From assembly GCA_944387055.1 (NCBI GenBank), contig CALXDL010000036.1:1-50018 (forward strand): 50,018 nt of DNA, read 5' to 3'. Positions within the stretch are counted from its first letter, which is position 1. Each line of letters opens with the position of its first letter. The notes beneath the pieces were generated by a model that did not search any database, was not told the DNA's origin, and worked only from the letters and a program-made list of their open reading frames with translations. Both the position numbers and the translations under genes were made by a program. Below, one piece after another: positions 24,531-35,482 of this stretch. This stretch comes from an uncultured Oscillospiraceae bacterium (GTDB taxonomy: Bacteria; Bacillota; Clostridia; Oscillospirales; Oscillospiraceae).

Positions 24531-25136
24531 TCAGACGAGCTCCGCCGGCGGCTTCGGATGGGGATAATTGATGACCATGGCCGCGCGGGTGATCCCGTTG
24601 GACACGTTCCGGTACGTATGTCCCTGATCGGCCCGGTAATGGACCACCGAGCCCTGGGGGACTGTATAGCGCTCGTCGTGATCGTCTCCCAGCTGGATCT
24701 CCAGAGCGCCCTGGTAGACCAACACGAACTCTTCCGTCCCCTCCGCATGGGGCCGGCTCTCTGACATCGCCCCCGCATCCAGCTCCAGGTCCACGATCTC
24801 GAAGCTGCGGCCCTTCTGGGCCCGGATGACGGGATAGAGCCGGAAATGACCGTGGTCGCTGACGACAGGCCGCATCTCCGCCTCGCTGATGATGCGGATG
24901 CCCTGTTCCGCGCGTTCCATCAGCGATGTGAAAGGGACCTGTAGCCCCGTGGCAATCTTCCAGAGGGTGGAGATGGTCGGGCTGGATTCGCCCCGCTCGA
25001 TCTGGCCCAGCATGCTCTTGCTCACGCCCGTGCGCTCTGCCACTTCGCCCAGGCTCAGGTGCATGTCCTTGCGTAAAGTCTTCAAATTGTCCGCGATCAC
25101 GAGGTTCATGTCCATCGCATTCTCAAAGGATGTCAT
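24531..25136 (-). CDS. XRE-cupin transcriptional regulator
   Basis: A 201-residue regulator. Residues about 10-70 are an HTH_3 domain (NLKTLRKDMHLSLGEVAERTGVSKSMLGQIERGESSPTISTLWKIA), and residues about 120-195 a cupin barrel (RPHAEGTEEFVLVYQGALEIQLGD...VHYRADQGHTYRN) that probably binds a small effector. Such XRE-cupin proteins usually control amino-acid, polyamine or amide catabolism next to them. It is divergent from the M20 amidohydrolase (gap 388 bp), making that gene and perhaps the glycyl radical enzyme genes its targets (inference). Confidence 0.9.
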   Translation of the reverse strand: MTSFENAMDMNLVIADNLKTLRKDMHLSLGEVAERTGVSKSMLGQIERGESSPTISTLWKIATGLQVPFTSLMERAEQGIRIISEAEMRPVVSDHGHFRLYPVIRAQKGRSFEIVDLELDAGAMSESRPHAEGTEEFVLVYQGALEIQLGDDHDERYTVPQGSVVHYRADQGHTYRNVSNGITRAAMVINYPHPKPPAELV

Positions 25137-27006: not shown

Positions 27007-29376
27007 GTGATCACCGACCGCATCGAAAAGATCCGCCAGAATTATGTGAACTCCAAACCAGAGATCTCCTATGAGCGTGCCCTGATCTGGACCGAGTCCT
27101 ACAAGAAGACGGAGGGCCTGCCCGTCTGCATCCGCAGCGCACGGGCATTCTATGACTGCTGCGATCAGCTGGGCGTCCATATCTTCGAGGGCGAGCTGGT
27201 CGTGGGCGCCATCGGCGAATTCCGCAAGTGCGGCATCCTGACCCCCGAGTTCTCCTGGATGTGGGTGGACCGGGAGATGGACAATTTCGCCACTCGTCCC
27301 CAGGACCCCTACATCATGACCGACGAGCAGCGCAAGTTCGTCCGTGAGAACATCTTCCCCTATTGGAAGGGGAAATCCTTGGAAGAAGCGTTCCTGGCCC
27401 GTCTGCCGGAGGATACCCGCCACATCGGTGTGGACACCGGTATCATCGACAACGACTCCAAGTGGCGCCAGGCCGTCGGTGAGGTAACGCCTGACTATCA
27501 GGACGTCCTGTTCAAGAAGGGCTTTGGCGGCATCATCCGGGAGGCCCAGGAGCACATCGCCCAGCTGGACATCAGCAAGCCCGAGGACGAGGACAAGAAA
27601 GATTTCTACGAGTCCATCATCTGGACTTCCAAGGGCATCATCCGCTATGCCAACCGCTACGCCGACGAGGCGGAGAAGATGGCCGCGGCGGAGAGCGACC
27701 CCCAGCGTGCGGAAGAGCTACGCGTCATCGCCCGCAACTGCCGCCGCGTGCCGGAGAATCCGCCCCAGAGCTTCTACGAGGCGATCCAGTTCCTGTGGTT
27801 CACCCAGATCGGCGGTATCCTGTCCGAGAACCCGCTGTCTCTCAACCCCGGTCGCTTCGACCAGTACATGGATCCTTACTACGAGGCGGATCTGGCAAAG
27901 GGCGACATCACCGAGGACTTCGCCCAAGAGCTGATCGACGCCCTGTGGCTGAAGTACTCTGAATGGGTGTGGACCATCTCCGCCAACACCGCAGACTATT
28001 TCGCCGGCTACAACCAGTTCCAGAACCTGACGGTGGGCGGCAAGAAGCGGGACGGCCACGACGGCACCAATCCCATCACCTATATGGCCATGAAGGCCAC
28101 CGAAGAGGTCAAGACCCATCAGCCGGGCCTCTCCGTCCGGGTGCAGGCCGACTGCCCCAAGGAGTTCCTGGACGCCGTGACCCACCTGGTGAGCAAGGGC
28201 ACCGGCTTCCCCGCCATCCACAGCGACAGTGTGGGGTATCAGATGCTGATCAACGCCGGATATGAACCGGAGGACGCGAAGGATTGGAACAACTGTGGCT
28301 GCGTGGTCCCTCACAGCCGCAAGACCGGCGAGTGGACCGCAGCCGTCAACATGAACTTCGGCTCCGCTTTGGAGTATGCGCTCAACCAGGGCGTCAGCCT
28401 GATGACCGGTGAGAAGATGGGCCTGGACGAGAAGCCCGCCGAGCAGTTCACCTCCTACGAAGAGGTGAAGGACGCCTTCTTCAAGCAGTTCGACAATCTG
28501 TGCCGGCACTCCATCATCCTCACGGTGGAAGCGCAGCGGCTCCACAAGGAGATGATCCCCCGCCCCTTCCTGTCCTCCTGCATCGAGCACTGCATGGAAT
28601 GCGGCAAGGATCTGAGCCAGGGCGGCGCCAAGTACAACATCGGCCCCGTCATCACTGGTATCGGCCTGGCTGTGGTCTCCAACTCCCTGGCGGTCATCAA
28701 GAAGCTGGTGTTCGAGGAGAAGGTCTGCGATATGGCTACTCTCGTCAAAGCGCTCCAGGCCAACTGGGAGGGGTATGACGATCTGCGCGCCAAAGCACAG
28801 GCCTGCCCCAAATACGGCAATGACGACGACTATGTGGACGACATCGCCATCGAAGTCGCCAACCACTTCTACAACGAGATCCACCAGTACAAGGACATCT
28901 TCGGCTCTCCCTTCCTGACGGCGTTCATGGGCATCTCCAACTATATCCCCATGGGCCGTGTCCTGGGCGCCACGCCCGACGGGCGCAAGAACGGCGAGCC
29001 TTCCAGCGAGGGCGTCTCTCCCTATGTCGGCACTGACAAGTCCACGCCGCTGGCCGCCATGCGCTCCACCGCGAAGGTGAACCAGGAGCTCCACTCCGGC
29101 GGTACGCTGCTGAACCTGCGCCTCGACCACAACCTGGTGGCCACCAAGCGGGGCCAGGCCAACCTGGGCGCTATGGTCCAGACCCTGTTCTCCCTGGGCG
29201 GTTTCCACGTGCAGTTCAACTGCATCTCCTCTGAAGTCCTTCGGGACGCGCAGAAGCACCCGGAGAACTACAAGGATCTGCTGGTCCGCGTGGCGGGGTA
29301 TTCTACGCAGTTCGTGAACCTGTCCAAGTCCATGCAGGACGCTATCATCGCCCGTACGGAGCACGGCGGGTTCTGA
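27007..29376 (+). CDS. Glycyl radical enzyme of unassigned type (PFL/HypD-like fold)
   Basis: A 789-residue anaerobic radical enzyme. 'NNCGCVVPH' (428-436) is the thiyl-radical loop with Cys432, and 'RVAGYS' (761-766) holds Gly764, the radical site 26 residues from the C-terminus. Length equals trans-4-hydroxyproline dehydratase, and the order of conserved blocks (SGGTLLN, YGNDDDYVD, DGRKNGEPSSEG) is that of this superfamily. However the CxE glutamate of dehydratases, choline lyase, isethionate lyase and arylacetate decarboxylases is Val434 here, so those identities are unsafe; pyruvate formate-lyase and succinate-adding enzymes also lack it. GTG 27007 follows AAGGAG. The activase gene is 144 bp downstream with a hairpin between. 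Substrate unknown. Confidence 0.93.
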   Translation: MITDRIEKIRQNYVNSKPEISYERALIWTESYKKTEGLPVCIRSARAFYDCCDQLGVHIFEGELVVGAIGEFRKCGILTPEFSWMWVDREMDNFATRPQDPYIMTDEQRKFVRENIFPYWKGKSLEEAFLARLPEDTRHIGVDTGIIDNDSKWRQAVGEVTPDYQDVLFKKGFGGIIREAQEHIAQLDISKPEDEDKKDFYESIIWTSKGIIRYANRYADEAEKMAAAESDPQRAEELRVIARNCRRVPENPPQSFYEAIQFLWFTQIGGILSENPLSLNPGRFDQYMDPYYEADLAKGDITEDFAQELIDALWLKYSEWVWTISANTADYFAGYNQFQNLTVGGKKRDGHDGTNPITYMAMKATEEVKTHQPGLSVRVQADCPKEFLDAVTHLVSKGTGFPAIHSDSVGYQMLINAGYEPEDAKDWNNCGCVVPHSRKTGEWTAAVNMNFGSALEYALNQGVSLMTGEKMGLDEKPAEQFTSYEEVKDAFFKQFDNLCRHSIILTVEAQRLHKEMIPRPFLSSCIEHCMECGKDLSQGGAKYNIGPVITGIGLAVVSNSLAVIKKLVFEEKVCDMATLVKALQANWEGYDDLRAKAQACPKYGNDDDYVDDIAIEVANHFYNEIHQYKDIFGSPFLTAFMGISNYIPMGRVLGATPDGRKNGEPSSEGVSPYVGTDKSTPLAAMRSTAKVNQELHSGGTLLNLRLDHNLVATKRGQANLGAMVQTLFSLGGFHVQFNCISSEVLRDAQKHPENYKDLLVRVAGYSTQFVNLSKSMQDAIIARTEHGGF

Positions 29377-29410
29377 TCCGATCGTCTATCACATCGGCAC
29401 ATGTGAGCTG

Positions 29411-29443
29411 GCGTGGGGCCGGACTGCTCGTTCGGTCCCACGC
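29411..29443 (+). other. Hairpin between glycyl radical enzyme and activase genes
   Basis: GCGTGGGGCCG (29411-29421) pairs with CGGTCCCACGC (29433-29443), one G-U pair. No T-run follows. It could stabilise the enzyme message or partly attenuate transcription into the activase gene, which is needed in far smaller amounts. Confidence 0.6.
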
Positions 29444-29520
29444 CTCTCCCGCGCGCGGCGCTCTACGGTGCCGCGATCGTTCCATCCGCTATCCCTGAAC
29501 GTCATAGGAGGTCAGAGCAT

Positions 29521-30261
29521 ATGGGCGGCTATATCATGCAGCTGCAAAATTTTTCCGTCAACGACGGCGAAGGCATCCGTACCATCGTCTTCATGGCAGG
29601 CTGCCCGCTGCGCTGTGCCTGGTGCGCCAATCCAGAGGGACAGAGCGCCTGCAATCCCATGACCCATTGGATGGAGACGGAAGAGGTCCTGAAGGAATTG
29701 CGGCGGCAGGCCATCTTCTACCGCTGGTCCGGCGGCGGCGTCACATTCTCCGGCGGGGAGGCCACCGCACAGCCCGCGTTCCTCAAAGAGCTCGTGGACG
29801 CCCTTTATGATGAAGGGTTCTCTTTGGCCATCGAGACCTGCGGGCAGTTCGATTTCCAGGAGCTGGAGCCCACCCTGCGGAAGATGGACCTCATCTTCAT
29901 GGACCTCAAGCACATCGACCCGGAGAAGCACCGGGCCTTCACCGGCGTGGATAACCGGCTCATCCTGGAGAACATCATCAAGACCGCAGGCCTGGGCGTG
30001 CCCATGGTGGTGCGCATCCCCGCGATCGTGGGCGTCAACTGTGACGCTGCCGCCATGGAGGGCGCGTTCGCCTTCCTGCGGGACAACCATCTGGACGTCG
30101 ATCTGGAGTTCCTCCCCTATCACCGCTATGGTGAGGCCAAGTACAAAGAACTGGGCATGGATCTGCCCAGCGAGGATTTTGGCATCCCCACGGCCGAGCA
30201 GCTGGATGCCTGGACGAAAAAAGCGGAGTCGTACGGCCTGCGGGTGGTCTCTTACCGCTGA
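29521..30261 (+). CDS. Glycyl radical enzyme activating enzyme (radical SAM, short form)
   Basis: A 246-residue radical SAM protein that would abstract hydrogen from Gly764 of the neighbouring enzyme. 'GCPLRCAWCANPE' holds the [4Fe-4S] ligands Cys28, Cys32 and Cys35; 'FSGGEAT' (about 77-83) binds SAM. Most activases of dehydratase, lyase and decarboxylase types carry about 60 residues with eight more cysteines for two auxiliary clusters after the CxxxCxxC; here only about 40 residues separate CxxxCxxC from GGE, so it has the simple pyruvate formate-lyase activase layout. ATG 29521 follows AGGAGG. A terminator follows at 30352. Confidence 0.93.
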   Translation: MGGYIMQLQNFSVNDGEGIRTIVFMAGCPLRCAWCANPEGQSACNPMTHWMETEEVLKELRRQAIFYRWSGGGVTFSGGEATAQPAFLKELVDALYDEGFSLAIETCGQFDFQELEPTLRKMDLIFMDLKHIDPEKHRAFTGVDNRLILENIIKTAGLGVPMVVRIPAIVGVNCDAAAMEGAFAFLRDNHLDVDLEFLPYHRYGEAKYKELGMDLPSEDFGIPTAEQLDAWTKKAESYGLRVVSYR

Positions 30262-30351: not shown

Positions 30352-30380
30352 GCCGCCCGTAAATCGGGCGGCGCCTTTTT
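30352..30380 (+). terminator. Terminator of the glycyl radical enzyme operon
   Basis: Stem GCCGCCCG / CGGGCGGC with loop TAAAT, then GCCTTTTT. Confidence 0.85.
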
Positions 30381-30447
30381 ATCTCCCCACTGCGTATAAG
30401 CCCCATCTGGCATTTCCCCGATCTGCAAGCAGGAGGTGATCGATCAT

Positions 30448-31773
30448 ATGCGTATGGCCATCGTCTTGCCAAAAACACAATCCGACATCTACTTCCAGCG
30501 ATTTCAAACGGTTTTTCAGCGGGACCACCCCGAAATAGATGTACAGTATCTCTTTTACAGCGATTACAAGGAAGCGCCGGGCCTGCTCCAGGATCATCAG
30601 CACGAATATGACGCGGTGATCTTCGCGGGTTCCGCCTCTTTTTATTATGCCCAGAGCTGCCTCCGCCAGGAGACCATCTGGCTCTACCTGCCCAGAGAAG
30701 GAAGCGCGATCTACCGCGCTCTGCTGTTGGCGCTCAAGCGTGGATGGGACATCACCCGCCTGAGTTTCGATACCTATGAGTACAGCATGCTCCTGGAAGC
30801 CTATCATGAACTGGGCTATCCTGAGGACAAGCTGCGCATCCAGTATTATACGCACCACCCCCGTTCGCCGGATTACAACAAATTGGTCCTGGACTTCCAT
30901 CGGGACTGTTTGTCCAAAGGGCTCGTCAGCGGCTGCATCACAAGGCTGACCACTGTGGCCAACATGATGGAGCGATATCACGTCCCTTACATCTTCGCTC
31001 ATCCTACCATCGACACCATCCGCGAGCAGGTGGCGTTTGGCCAAAAATTAGTGGTCGCTACGCAGGGCGGCCTGGACCAATTCGCAGTCTTAGCTGTGGA
31101 CGTCAGCCTACCGGTAGAGTCTTCCGCTTTTGCTCCAAGCGAATATTCCTTCTCTATGGATCGTCTCCACATCGCCAGGCAAGTCTACCGTTATGCAGAG
31201 CTGATCCGAGGTACAGTCTTGGAGCAAGGACCGGGCGAATATGTCCTTTTTTCTACCAAAGAGCTTTTGGAATCCCAAACAGGCTCTTATCAGCGTCTCG
31301 CTCTGCTCGATCAGCTGGTCAAAGAGTTCCCTTACTGCGTCTCCATCGGCGTAGGCTGCAGCAAGACGGCGGCAGAGGCCAGGCGGCTGTCCCTCGTCGC
31401 TCTGCGCAGGTCTATCCAGCGGCGCAAGAGCGGCGCTGTGCTCCAATTCAGCGACGGCACGTCTCTCTATATCCGTCCAGGCGGCACTGCACCGGACGTC
31501 AAAGCGACCGCCTCGGAGCAGTGGCAGGAGGCCGCCCAGCGGACCCATCTGAGTGCCAATACGATCGCCCGTATCGCAGAGCTCACATGTCGCCGCCAGG
31601 ACGACCGGTTCACTGCCCGCCAACTGGCGGAAGGCCTTGGCATCAGCCGCCGCAGCGCGGATCGTATCTTGGAGCGGTTAGAAGCCCAGGGATATGCGGC
31701 AGCTGTTGGTCAGGAGGTGTTTGGCGAGCGGGGCCGTCCTGCACGGATCATGCAGGTTTTTCTCCTCAAGTGA
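30448..31773 (+). CDS. Multi-domain transcriptional regulator with C-terminal winged helix
   Basis: A 441-residue protein starting MRMAIVLPKTQSDIYFQRF. The N-terminal 200 residues look like an alternating alpha/beta sensor domain ('YDAVIFAGSASFYYA', 'YVPYIFAHPTIDTIREQ') somewhat like PrpR_N. About 250-345 resembles a degenerate nucleotide-cyclase/GGDEF-like fold ('YCVSIGVGCSKTAAEARRLSLVALRRS'), as in some CdaR-like regulators. The end (FTARQLAEGLGISRRSADRILERLEAQGYAAAV, about 395-427) is a winged helix-turn-helix. AGGAGGTGAT at 30431-30440 decides the start. It lies between the glycyl radical enzyme operon and the membrane/peptidase operon and may control either. I cannot name the family. Confidence 0.75.
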   Translation: MRMAIVLPKTQSDIYFQRFQTVFQRDHPEIDVQYLFYSDYKEAPGLLQDHQHEYDAVIFAGSASFYYAQSCLRQETIWLYLPREGSAIYRALLLALKRGWDITRLSFDTYEYSMLLEAYHELGYPEDKLRIQYYTHHPRSPDYNKLVLDFHRDCLSKGLVSGCITRLTTVANMMERYHVPYIFAHPTIDTIREQVAFGQKLVVATQGGLDQFAVLAVDVSLPVESSAFAPSEYSFSMDRLHIARQVYRYAELIRGTVLEQGPGEYVLFSTKELLESQTGSYQRLALLDQLVKEFPYCVSIGVGCSKTAAEARRLSLVALRRSIQRRKSGAVLQFSDGTSLYIRPGGTAPDVKATASEQWQEAAQRTHLSANTIARIAELTCRRQDDRFTARQLAEGLGISRRSADRILERLEAQGYAAAVGQEVFGERGRPARIMQVFLLK

Positions 31774-32054: not shown

Positions 32055-32762
32055 ATGAACGAACATCGATTCCAGCAGATCATCAATGGTCCGGATATCT
32101 GGGCAGTTTGCGGGATCGCCATCGGGATCATCGTGATCCAATCCTGTATCTTCTTGAAGAATGCCCTGCAGGAATCCGCCCGCCTGCAGATCAGTCCTGC
32201 CCGTCGGCATTCTGCGGTCCGTGCCGCCTGTATCACTGCAGTCGGGCCTTCTCTGTCCCCGGTCATCATCGCCATGAGCATGATCTCTATCGTAGGTGCC
32301 CCCAATGCCTGGCTGAACCTGAACAACATCGGCGCCGCCAGGACCGAGCTTGCCACCATCGCCATCGGCGCCTCCTTTGCCGGTGTGGAAACGCTGGGCA
32401 GCAACATCGGCCTCCCCGCTTGGAGCTGCGCATTGTGGGCCTGCGCATTGAATGGAGCCGGCTGGATGCTGGTCGTCTTTTTCCTGAACCACCGGATGGA
32501 ACGGATCTCCAGCACGCTCTACCAGCGTTATGATCCAAAGTGGATCAAGGTCCTGATGAGTACGGCGGTCACCAGTCTTTTCTGTTATCTGCTGGGAAAC
32601 CAGCTTATCGGTCAGGACTATCTCTTTTATATCGCCGCAGCGGTCTCTGGCTGCTGTATGCTGCTATTGACCCAATTGTGCAAAAAAAGTCAGATCCTGC
32701 AGGAGATCTCCCTTGGAGTCTCCATGTTGGCCGGGATGTTCACCGCGCAAATGCTCGCGTGA
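32055..32762 (+). CDS. DUF5058-like membrane protein A
   Basis: A 235-residue protein with about six membrane helices. It resembles DUF5058 proteins: N-terminal helix with 'IVIQSCIFLKNAL', then 'AVRAACITAVGPSLSPVIIAMSMISIVGAPNAW', the loop 'IGAARTEL', and 'YDPKWIKVLM' before the last helices. ATG 32055 follows GGGAGAG. The paralog B starts 44 bp downstream and shares all these blocks. Function is not known; co-location with an M20 peptidase suggests part of an uptake system for peptides or acylated amino acids (inference). The gap 31851-32054 holds only a weak promoter-like stretch. Confidence 0.75.
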   Translation: MNEHRFQQIINGPDIWAVCGIAIGIIVIQSCIFLKNALQESARLQISPARRHSAVRAACITAVGPSLSPVIIAMSMISIVGAPNAWLNLNNIGAARTELATIAIGASFAGVETLGSNIGLPAWSCALWACALNGAGWMLVVFFLNHRMERISSTLYQRYDPKWIKVLMSTAVTSLFCYLLGNQLIGQDYLFYIAAAVSGCCMLLLTQLCKKSQILQEISLGVSMLAGMFTAQMLA

Positions 32763-32806: not shown

Positions 32807-33511
32807 ATGGATATCAATGAGATCATCAACAGTCCGATTCTTTGGGTCCTCTCGGGCCTGATGGTCATCGCATCAGTCTCACAAGCCATCGTATTCCTGC
32901 GCAATTCCTTGAAAGAAGCCGATCGTTTGGGCATCGACAAGCCGCGCCGCGTCGCCAGTGTCCGTTCTGCCTGCATCACGTCTCTGGGGCCTTCTCTGGC
33001 TCCTGTGGTCTCCGTCCTGGCTCTGATCGCTGTGATCGGTGCTCCCACCACTTGGATGCGTCTTTGTGACGTGGGCGCCGCCCGGACGGAGCTGGGCGTG
33101 GTGTCCCTGATGGCAGACCTGGCAGGCGCCGAAGTGGGTGCCGAGAGCTTTGGCCTGGAAGCATTCTCCTATTCGCTCTGGGGCATGGCCCTCAATAACT
33201 TTGGCTGGCTGATCCTGGTATTCCTTCTGGTCCATCGCATGAACCGTGTGGTGGTGTGGATGGATACCAAGTATGACCCCAAGTGGATCAAGACGCTGAT
33301 GGGCGCGGCCACGATGGGCATGTTCGGCTATCTGCTGTCCAATCAGCTCTATACGTTCGATGCCACTCGCTGGGTGGCCGCAGCGGCGGGCGGCGGGATG
33401 ATGCTGCTCTTGTCCACTGCTTTCAAAAAGCACCAGCGTCTCCAGGAGCTGGCATTGGGCTTGTCCCTGCTCTTTGGTATGTTCGTGACGCAGCTCGTGT
33501 TTGGTCAGTGA
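32807..33511 (+). CDS. DUF5058-like membrane protein B (tandem paralog)
   Basis: A 234-residue paralog of the preceding protein: 'ASVSQAIVFLRNSLKEADRLGI', 'ASVRSACITSLGPSLAPVVSVLALIAVIGAPTTWMRL', 'VGAARTELGVV' and 'YDPKWIKTLMGAATMGMFGYLLSNQL' align with it end to end, but with clear divergence, so the two probably form a heteromer rather than being a recent copy. About six membrane helices. TGGAGGGAACAGC precedes ATG 32807. The next gene follows after 27 bp, indicating an operon. Confidence 0.78.
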   Translation: MDINEIINSPILWVLSGLMVIASVSQAIVFLRNSLKEADRLGIDKPRRVASVRSACITSLGPSLAPVVSVLALIAVIGAPTTWMRLCDVGAARTELGVVSLMADLAGAEVGAESFGLEAFSYSLWGMALNNFGWLILVFLLVHRMNRVVVWMDTKYDPKWIKTLMGAATMGMFGYLLSNQLYTFDATRWVAAAAGGGMMLLLSTAFKKHQRLQELALGLSLLFGMFVTQLVFGQ

Positions 33512-33538: not shown

Positions 33539-34201
33539 ATGTCATACGATAAAAAAGTCATCCGGAACGGCCGCATCACCATGGGCCTTGCCATCATCGC
33601 CAACTTTATCCCCGCCATCTATGTCGGTATGCATTATGACGTGATGCCCACTCTGTCCGTCATCCTCCAGATATGGGGCGTCGTGGCTGCAAGCTACGGC
33701 ATCACCTGGATCATCCAGCCCATCGCCTACTATCCCACCATGGGAGCCGCAGGCTCCTATATCGGCTGGCTGGCCGGAAGCTGCGGCGACATCCGTATGC
33801 CGGCCGCCGCGATGGCGCAGAAAGTGGCCGGAGTCGAGCCCGGCACCCATGAGGGCGATGTGGTCGGCACCATCGGCGTGGCCTGCTCTGTGCTCGTGTC
33901 CGCCTCGATGATCACCATTTTCGTCCTGATCGGTTCCTGGATCATCCCGCTGCTGCCGGAGAGCGTGACCAATTCCTTCTCGTACATCCTGCCTTCTCTG
34001 TTTGGGGCCATCTTCGTAGATAACGCCCGGAAAAATCTCAAGGCCGGCATCCTCACCCTTGCAGCCGCCATGGCGATCTTGTTCTTCGGCTCGAAGCTCG
34101 GCATCAACAGCGGGATCTTGACGCTGCTGGTCGTTCTCTGCGGCATCCTGATCTCCCGGATGTTCTTTGTCGCCGCACGCAAGAAATCGTCTGAGACCTA
34201 A
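33539..34201 (+). CDS. Third membrane component of the DUF5058-like set
   Basis: A 220-residue protein with about six membrane segments, unrelated in sequence to the two before it. It has the Gly/Ala-rich stretch 'YYPTMGAAGSYIGWLAGSCGDIRMPAAAMAQKVAGVEPGTHEGD' joining helices 2 and 3, a likely re-entrant or substrate-facing loop, and ends with a Lys-rich tail. AAAGGAAGG precedes ATG 33539. Proteins of this type seem to be coded next to DUF5058 genes (recollection), suggesting a three-part transporter. No ATPase or binding protein is nearby, so it would be a secondary carrier. Confidence 0.7.
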   Translation: MSYDKKVIRNGRITMGLAIIANFIPAIYVGMHYDVMPTLSVILQIWGVVAASYGITWIIQPIAYYPTMGAAGSYIGWLAGSCGDIRMPAAAMAQKVAGVEPGTHEGDVVGTIGVACSVLVSASMITIFVLIGSWIIPLLPESVTNSFSYILPSLFGAIFVDNARKNLKAGILTLAAAMAILFFGSKLGINSGILTLLVVLCGILISRMFFVAARKKSSET

Positions 34202-34300
34202 ACGCTATCTCTGCCGCGGTGCGGCGCTCCTGCCGGTCATCACCGCAGCGCATTTTTGGAGGATTCTTCCCTCGCGCAGCGCGGGGGAAAGGAGGAATTT

Positions 34301-35482
34301 ATGGATGTGACACACAAGCATGCGATCGAGGCCTATGTGGATGCGCATCGTGAAGAGATGCTGGCACTCTGGCGTGAGATTGTAGACCTGGAGGGCCGCT
34401 CAGAAGAGCTGGACGCTCTCCGACTGGTGGCGGAGCGCCTCAGATCGGCTTTTGAGGCCGCCGGAGTGGACTGCCGTCTCCTTCCCATGGGTGACGGAGC
34501 CCAGGATTATCTCACCGGCATCTGGGGAGCCGATCTTCCCGGCAAGCCAGTGCTCTTCTGCGGCCACTATGACACCATCTTGCCCAGCGGCAAATATGGC
34601 CCCGCGCCTTTCCGTATCGAGGAAGGTCGGGCACGCGGCCCCGGTGTATTGGACATGAAGGGCGGTATCGTCATCGCTCTATACGTCATCAAGGCACTTT
34701 CTTCCATCGGGTTCCAGGAGCGGCCCATCAAGATCTGCTTCGTTTCGGACGAGGAGTCCTGTCACGCGCACAACGATCGTGCCGGTGAGGTCATCATGAG
34801 CGAAGCCTCCGGCTGTCTTTGCGCCTTCAACATGGAGACCGGCCGCATCAACAACGACCTGTGTGTGGGGCGGAGCGCTCGCGTCAGTTTCCACGTCTCT
34901 GTCACCGGCGTCGCGGCCCATGCCGGCAACGACTTTGCTGCCGGACGGAACGCGATCGCGGAGATGTGCCACAAGGTCCTGGAGCTGGAGGCACTCACAG
35001 ACCTGGAGAGGGGCAGCACCGTCAACTGCGGCGTGATCCAAGGCGGGACCGTCGCCAACGCGGTCCCCGGCCGGTGCGATCTGCATGTGGATATGCGGTT
35101 CCTGCGGCAAGCCGAACTTGAGAAGACCGTTGCTGCCGCCCAGGCGATCTGCGCCAAGACTTACATCGATGGCACGTCCACCCAGTGCTCTTACCGGGTC
35201 GCCATGCCTGCTTTCGAGACCATCCCAGGGGTGATGGAGCTATACGAGCTGGCCAAGGAAGTCTCCGAGGCCTATGGCTACGGCTCTCCCGGAAAGATCG
35301 TCCTGGGCGGTGTCTCCGACGCCTCCTACCTGACCATGGCCGGTGTCCCGACGCTCTGTTCGTTCGGTGTGCGCGGAGAGCATAACCATACCGATGAAGA
35401 ATACGCAGTCGTAGAGTCCCTGTATGAGCGTACCAAGTGGCTCTCCGCCCTTTTCCTGCATCTGTCAGATCTCCAGAGCTGA
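34301..35482 (+). CDS. M20-family metallopeptidase (carboxypeptidase G2/ArgE-like)
   Basis: A 393-residue two-zinc hydrolase. 'LFCGHYDTILPSG' holds the first metal His/Asp, 'GPGVLDMKGG' the bridging Asp, 'FVSDEESCH' the catalytic Glu and metal ligand, and 'GEHNHTDEEY' the last His. 'SVTGVAAHAGNDFAAGRNAI' is the dimerisation-domain signature of the CPG2 group, which removes C-terminal Glu or other residues from N-acylated or folate-like compounds. GGAGG at 34291-34295 sets ATG 34301. It closes the operon of three membrane proteins and probably cleaves what they import. Confidence 0.9.
   Translation: MDVTHKHAIEAYVDAHREEMLALWREIVDLEGRSEELDALRLVAERLRSAFEAAGVDCRLLPMGDGAQDYLTGIWGADLPGKPVLFCGHYDTILPSGKYGPAPFRIEEGRARGPGVLDMKGGIVIALYVIKALSSIGFQERPIKICFVSDEESCHAHNDRAGEVIMSEASGCLCAFNMETGRINNDLCVGRSARVSFHVSVTGVAAHAGNDFAAGRNAIAEMCHKVLELEALTDLERGSTVNCGVIQGGTVANAVPGRCDLHVDMRFLRQAELEKTVAAAQAICAKTYIDGTSTQCSYRVAMPAFETIPGVMELYELAKEVSEAYGYGSPGKIVLGGVSDASYLTMAGVPTLCSFGVRGEHNHTDEEYAVVESLYERTKWLSALFLHLSDLQS

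Follow-up and report, generated by a model that had tools for sequence, protein, structure and literature searches.

The window analysed here, a stretch of 50,018 nucleotides from an uncultured Oscillospiraceae bacterium (contig CALXDL010000036.1), encodes on its forward strand a glycyl radical enzyme (GRE) of 789 residues (27007..29376), adjoined by the gene of its activase. The assignment follows from the open reading frame (ORF), from Pfam matches to PF02901 (732 bits) and PF01228 (108 bits) and from the placement of the protein in a tree of GREs; the gene starts with a GTG codon having a good ribosome-binding site, AGAAGGAG, just 5' of it. The cysteine loop reads DWNNCGCVVPHSRKTGEW, and its codons 430–439 (28294..28323, forward strand) specify Cys430, the thiyl Cys432, Val434 at the place of the glutamate that other GREs carry two residues after the thiyl cysteine (the CXE glutamate), His436, Arg438 and Lys439; the pattern CGCVVP[H/N] matches at 28294-28314. 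Two further codons of the same strand are relevant to what follows, namely that of the radical-bearing Gly764 within RVAGYS (29296..29298) and that of Glu159 (27481..27483), a residue aligned with CutC Asp216, HypD His160 and Arg176 of pyruvate formate-lyase (PFL). Cys432, Val434 and Gly764 had been assigned in a preliminary description of this DNA, and the translated ORF and the alignments locate them at these same positions. The AlphaFold2 model, based on a 48-row alignment, has a pLDDT of 92.4 and a pTM of 0.92, and the best-ranked solved structures compared with it are propanediol dehydratase, CutC and glycerol dehydratase (37–38% identity, TM-scores of 0.97–0.98). The protein thus combines the features that define the GRE superfamily, which are a PFL-like barrel, a thiyl cysteine (Cys432) and a C-terminal glycyl radical loop (Gly764), and with an activase gene adjoining it is predicted to be an intact and functional enzyme.

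The activase (29521..30261, forward strand) is a radical SAM protein carrying the CxxxCxxC motif and scoring above the cut-off of TIGR02494. Its probable start is the ATG at 29521, which has AGGAGGT 5' of it, the listed ORF beginning with a GTG at 29413, some 36 codons too early. A terminator-like hairpin with eight G-C pairs and a T tail was found 3' of the gene pair (30352..30372, forward strand) in a consensus scan that returned 12 hairpins in the region against 6.7 expected, and its position suggests that GRE and activase form a separate unit.

We have compared the protein with its relatives, taken as the best 80 of 575 matches from one scan of genome contigs. Among these, 51 (loci L031-L079, L084 and L085) share 58–86% identity with the window GRE over the best segment, whereas the other 29 reach at most 41%. 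An alignment of 50 rows, comprising the window, L002 and 48 of the 51 loci (L075, L078 and L084 being left out), gives the loop consensus W-N/S-N-C-G-C-V-V-P-H-x-R-K. Trp427, Cys430, Cys432, Val434, Arg438, Lys439 and Thr444 are present in all 50 rows, position 436 is His in 49 and Asn in one, and Lys152, Trp153, Arg154 and Glu159 occur in each of the 49 rows with letters there; Gly764 is found in 48, with a gap in L034 and another residue at the cut ORF end of L076. The CXE glutamate is therefore absent, and replaced by valine, in the window GRE and in 49/49 aligned orthologues, as the preliminary description had stated for the window protein; in 57 other aligned GREs the same position is Glu (46), Ser (6, of the PFL type), Gln (3) or Trp (2).

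The group is rare. In an exact DNA search, CGCVVP[H/N] was encoded, with differing synonymous codons, by five of the 398 genomes examined from the phylum, the source genome included, and the other four matches sit in GRE-like ORFs of 787–798 residues. Of the 390 remaining genomes of the class, four have clear orthologues (three above 1100 bits and one broken gene), 14 more genomes matching at 670–713 bits, as judged from scores only, and so does one of 59 relatives that belong mostly to the same genus (G014, 63% identity). The latter genome holds, besides its intact copy, a second fragmentary one with internal stops (C1:820607-821128, 63% identity). According to record titles the hosts include Anaerotignum, Sedimentibacter, Dethiosulfatibacter, Acidaminobacter, Sporomusa, Metaclostridioides, Mogibacterium, Megasphaera, Synergistaceae and Oleispirillum, and several of these ferment amino acids. 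The Val434 clade is a conserved GRE group of gut and sediment anaerobes from several phyla, not previously characterised: literature searches combining glycyl radical with five host names or with N-methyl-hydroxyproline/betonicine, and searches for the PDB codes 8ID1, 8ID0, 8ID7, 8IOF, 9RCO and 8YJN, retrieved nothing on it, in a collection lacking most subscription journals, so that an earlier description is possible. The clade gene is split into two ORFs in L134 (8025-10309), L075, L078 and L034, by a real break or an assembly error, and the cut copy in L076, labelled Enterobacter asburiae, lies beside ORFs resembling insertion elements by eye and is possibly misbinned or transferred.

A maximum-likelihood tree of 45 GREs, from which IslA, HpsG, IAD, BSS and MASS were left out, recovers the 17 clade rows as monophyletic with 100/100 support, apart from all characterised enzymes placed in it. 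Next to the clade branches CutC (92/82), and the N-methyl-cis-4-hydroxyproline dehydratases (8id1 and 8iof), together with two Synergistota sequences, join clade and CutC at 95/93, these dehydratases and the Val434 group forming distinct clades of 100/100 each. HPAD-like, HypD, HplG and two other sequences are long branches of uncertain position, and PFL is a very long separate branch. The window GRE matches 12 NCBIfam models and falls under the cut-off of each, with 709.1 bits of the 1050 set for CutC (TIGR04394), 669.6 of 678.2 for the PFL2-3 subfamily, 574.9 of 1100 for HypD and 150.6 of 994.2 for PFL (TIGR01255); none of the curated equivalog cut-offs for HypD, HpsG, HpfG, PflD-type, IAD and HPAD is reached. 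Membership of a characterised clade, named beforehand as an outcome that would overturn the proposal of a new reaction class, was not seen with the enzymes placed in the tree.

Some further sequences from the same comparison have unusual loops of their own. Three GREs from the window's genus (L003, L009 and L029) have Gln instead of the CXE glutamate (GCIQPG, GCVQPG); L003 and L009 fall in the HplG branch, L003 having also Glu at site 159, and this is a second independent loss of the CXE residue. The homologues of L018 and L022 have the odd loops PCNWGD and GCQWFC, with Trp at that position, and in two Synergistota contigs (L082:7563-12367 and L086:7516-12376) two unlike GRE genes lie in tandem, one of them of the N-methyl-hydroxyproline dehydratase branch.

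The preliminary description had also taken the lack of auxiliary clusters in the activase as a sign of a new reaction class. The lack itself is borne out, since CxxxCxxC and SGGE are separated by 49 residues in the window activase as compared to 98–110 in the 31 scored orthologues bearing the two-cluster insert. We have surveyed activases adjoining the GRE at 57 loci (the window, L031-L079, L085, L111, L131, L133 and L134 among those covered), of which 45 could be scored, one was unscorable and 11 had no activase match to the search pattern, a pattern that misses HDG-type activases such as that of L132. The insert is present in 31/45 and absent in 14/45, and on the activase tree (45 rows, insert region removed) it changes six times on the best tree and 5–7 times over bootstraps, at least three changes being forced by well-supported branches. 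In fact, the same-genus orthologue of L002/L111 has a GRE loop of identical type, yet an activase with both clusters. Because the insert comes and goes within one GRE orthologue group, it is not tied to the reaction, and we have rejected its absence as a marker of reaction class. The function of these auxiliary iron-sulfur clusters is described as still unknown in the accessible text of PMC11528403, and the series offers a natural test of their role.

The residues that would handle the substrate were assigned by alignment, which gives correspondences and no atomic distances. According to the accessible parts of the HypD and IslA reports, exchange of the CXE glutamate for glutamine abolishes detectable activity in both enzymes, and a natural valine at this position therefore points to altered chemistry. 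A common substrate-contact site on strand beta1 is named in the accessible text of PMC8473560 (IslA Gln193, CutC Asp216, HypD His160), and it aligns with residue 159 of the window GRE. This site is Glu in 17/17 clade rows of the tree, and in the 28 other rows it is His (17), Glu (5; four of the N-methyl-hydroxyproline branch, with 8id1 and 8iof among the Glu-bearing proteins, and L003), Arg (3; two PFL and the HPAD-like sequence), Asn (2) or Asp (1, CutC); the chain of 8iof was read from that residue pair on. In PFL, Arg176 binds a carboxylate. The residue at site 159 thus tends to track the charge of the substrate, and Glu159 fits a cation. As for the remaining CutC sites, Tyr208 corresponds to Ser151, Tyr506 to Asn/Ser448, Thr502 to Thr444 and Phe395 to Phe338.

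The genes around the pair were compared by counting neighbours at 61 clade GRE loci, window included, and at 29 control loci, which carry CXE-type GREs and were taken from the same scan. A regulator is found at 40/61 loci, more often than any other partner except the activase. In the window it is a cupin-helix-turn-helix (HTH) protein of the XRE family (24531..25136, reverse strand), with homologues at 31/61 GRE loci and 0/29 control loci, the remaining nine regulators being of the GntR-FCD type. On the forward strand, an M20D amidohydrolase above the cut-off of TIGR01891 (25525..26724) precedes the GRE, and the activase is followed by an unnamed sensor-HTH-like protein (30436..31773; weak HTH matches, homologue in 6/61 GRE loci), two DUF5058 proteins (32055..32762, a membrane protein by eye, and 32807..33511), a protein without Pfam match that is a membrane protein by eye and goes together with DUF5058 and M20 even where no GRE is near (33539..34201), and a glutamate-carboxypeptidase-like M20A hydrolase scoring under the cut-offs of the 25 families listed (34256..35482). 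No paper on DUF5058 was found in the searched literature, which lacks most subscription journals. Homologues of the M20 enzymes occur at 11/61 GRE loci (M20A at 7, M20D at 5) and 0/29 CXE-GRE loci (Fisher p 0.014), which is moderate evidence of enrichment, as 13 families were tried uncorrected and the loci are related; aldo/keto-reductase homologues, named by eye, occur at 9/61 and 1/29.

The order seen in the window from the GRE to M20A is retained in L031 (GRE 84% identical), where RidA follows. Sporomusa malonica (L067) has in succession GntR, GRE, activase, M20A, two Gate-domain proteins, a PFOR-like gene, RidA, a sensor and a second M20A; the PFOR-like gene, named by eye, is found also in L065, and RidA is present at three of the 61 loci: it lies 3' of M20A in L031 and belongs to the cluster of L067, and L111 has a partial match to it. 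In Dethiosulfatibacter (L056) a DcuC-family carrier, two enolase-superfamily genes, an M20A gene and a class III CoA-transferase lie 5' of the GRE, and the enolase-superfamily gene that was searched passes the o-succinylbenzoate synthase model; such enzymes have N-acylamino-acid racemase as a known second activity. L111 has an AGCS amino-acid carrier adjoining the GRE, L132 an Amidohydro_3 gene with DUF5058, and L158 a gene resembling 3-hydroxyacyl-CoA dehydrogenases 3' of the activase. A conversion of aspartate or cysteate to 2-aminoacrylate and formate or sulfite, prompted by the RidA, PFOR-like, DcuC-family and aspartate-kinase genes, was considered and not kept as an explanation of its own, and neither was a link to taurine via bile-salt hydrolases; the term M20 is absent from preprint PMC13081902, in which glycyl radical enzyme is mentioned twice. 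Separately, a YhfT gene (PF10797) and, by eye, phosphotriesterase-, YhfX- and YhfW-like genes lie directly 5' of regulator and GRE in L041 (1963-6614), and the window has at 21690-24319 genes for a Dcm-like cytosine methyltransferase, a Vsr-like nuclease and a third protein, by eye a restriction-modification-like set.

Taken with the active site, these data lead us to propose that the clade enzyme acts on a positively charged amine, likeliest an amino acid, N-methylated or not, that is released from its N-acyl or dipeptide conjugates, a tentative assignment to which we give slightly less than an even chance. An amine substrate, handled with no ketyl formation, is suggested because Glu159 is invariant as in the amine-acting relatives and the CXE glutamate is lost, and an amino-acid-derived compound agrees with the regulators and M20 hydrolases among the neighbours. 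The thiyl radical of Cys432 would abstract a hydrogen from the carbon adjoining the amine, which Glu159 would hold and deprotonate, so that the nitrogen lone pair would take the role played by the alkoxide in CXE eliminases. There is a precedent in HypD, where, in the accessible part of the report, the amine is proposed to be deprotonated (Asp278) before hydrogen abstraction. The resulting alpha-amino radical could then fragment, at a C-N, C-C or C-S bond, or rearrange with no need for the CXE glutamate, and the imine or enamine produced would hydrolyse unaided or via RidA. The product probably feeds central metabolism directly, since for many copies regulator and activase are the only recurrent partners. 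A new reaction for the clade is plausible from its sequences, and C-C chemistry, raised in the preliminary description, is possible; that the clade represents a new GRE reaction class is a rather doubtful proposition that we put forward tentatively. In such a class an amino acid bearing no hydroxyl would undergo a radical fragmentation or rearrangement driven by its amine, Glu159 and the nitrogen of the substrate taking the places of the CXE glutamate and the substrate alkoxide, and an enamine or imine would be formed.

Several observations weigh against this proposal. The carboxylate of Glu159 may itself stand in for the CXE glutamate, the site-159 residue of HypD and of the N-methyl-hydroxyproline dehydratases accompanies a hydroxyl leaving group, so that Glu159 does not have to bind an amine, Glu159 occurs also in L003, a GRE of a different branch, and the union of CutC with the clade is supported by 92/82 only. 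Among the neighbours, 50/61 loci have no M20 homologue, some of these being short contigs, and the evidence from M20 and RidA comes from few lineages. The GRE of the Mogibacterium type lies behind leu/ilv genes (L058, L061, L063 and L079) or aspartate kinase (L059 and L060), which the model leaves unexplained, and the cassette of DUF5058, membrane protein and M20 is found at L161-L165 away from any GRE, L165 being a second copy of it in the source genome, and may be a general scavenging unit.

The strongest competing explanation is an ordinary GRE eliminase whose general base has shifted from the CXE position to Glu159 and which eliminates a group beside a hydroxyl, the substrate being an amino alcohol or hydroxylated amine. 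In the accessible part of the HypD report, His160 lies 2.5 Å from the CXE glutamate and its site also deals with the hydroxyl that departs, so that Glu159, which occupies the corresponding beta1 site, may compensate for the lost residue; this counts in part against the preliminary description, which had named a functionally equivalent glutamate as an outcome refuting its proposal. Alignment of Thr444 with CutC Thr502, the eliminases as nearest relatives of the clade and the pairing of Glu159 with Gln for the CXE glutamate in L003 all favour a displaced base; however, the N-methyl-hydroxyproline dehydratases possess Glu159 in addition to the CXE glutamate, Glu159 alone is no known substitute, and the sites of CutC Tyr208 and Tyr506 are Ser and Asn/Ser in the clade. 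We regard such an eliminase as unlikely, if still a serious contender. As a special case of the amine-driven proposal, the enzyme could be a lyase or isomerase of a proline-type or N-methylated amine with no hydroxyl (e.g. proline, N-methylproline or pipecolate), the CXE glutamate being lost as no hydroxyl leaves. The W-x-x-C-G-C-V loop start common to the clade, 8id1 and 8iof is consistent with it, as is the use of hydroxyprolines by that sister branch and by the more distant HypD and HplG; on the other hand, we know of no ring opening of unsubstituted proline by such a radical, and no proline-specific gene was noticed by eye beside the GRE, in an inspection that included no aimed search, and this variant seems improbable.

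The resemblance to PFL advanced in the preliminary description finds no support. A PFL-like 2-oxoacid formate-lyase working through the pair Cys430/Cys432 would be in line with the two loop cysteines and with the presence of a PFOR-like gene or of ilvA/ilvE in the vicinity of some copies, but the cysteines are not adjacent (Cys-Gly-Cys rather than Cys-Cys), the first of them is found also in 8id1 and 8iof, site 159 is Glu and not Arg, and the score to TIGR01255 and the long separate branch place PFL remote from the clade, which makes this very improbable. Least credible of all is a radical enzyme that joins carbon atoms in the manner of the X-succinate synthases, whose reaction proceeds with no CXE or other general base and would suit the loss of the CXE glutamate, but which fail as closest sequence kin of the window GRE by profile score (alpha chains of BSS 416 and MASS 396 bits, against 765–909 for CutC and 8id1) and whose small subunit has no recurrent counterpart in the neighbour clusters, where no family search was aimed at it.

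As far as the accessible literature goes, the GRE eliminases characterised so far depend on the CXE glutamate, and its loss from an active site otherwise strictly kept across several phyla makes new radical amine chemistry likely here. The system is testable, as it consists of a two-gene core unit and is carried by type strains, among them Sedimentibacter hydroxybenzoicus DSM 7310, Anaerotignum lactatifermentans DSM 14214 and Sporomusa malonica DSM 5090.

Among known systems, CutC is the best sequence and profile match (38% identity, TM-score of 0.98 to the AlphaFold2 model), with an acidic residue at site 159 and the Thr502 and Phe395 sites retained; unlike the window GRE it has the CXE glutamate and its two tyrosines, it lies outside the clade in the tree, and the window protein with its Val434 falls well below the CutC equivalog cut-off. 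The 8id1 and 8iof enzymes, N-methyl-cis-4-hydroxy-L/D-proline dehydratases by their entry titles, share with the clade Trp427, Cys430-Gly-Cys432 and Glu159, but keep the CXE glutamate (GCVETN), are 36–38% identical to the window GRE and have a loop one residue longer. Glycerol dehydratase, HypD, HplG, YbiW and PflD have the same fold and the same Cys and Gly loops, whereas the CXE glutamate is present in them and their site 159 is His, or Asn in HplG. PFL also lacks the CXE glutamate, having Ser instead, and its activase is free of the insert, as are those of 14 of the scored clade loci; it differs by its Cys-Cys pair, by Arg at site 159 and by a very distant sequence.

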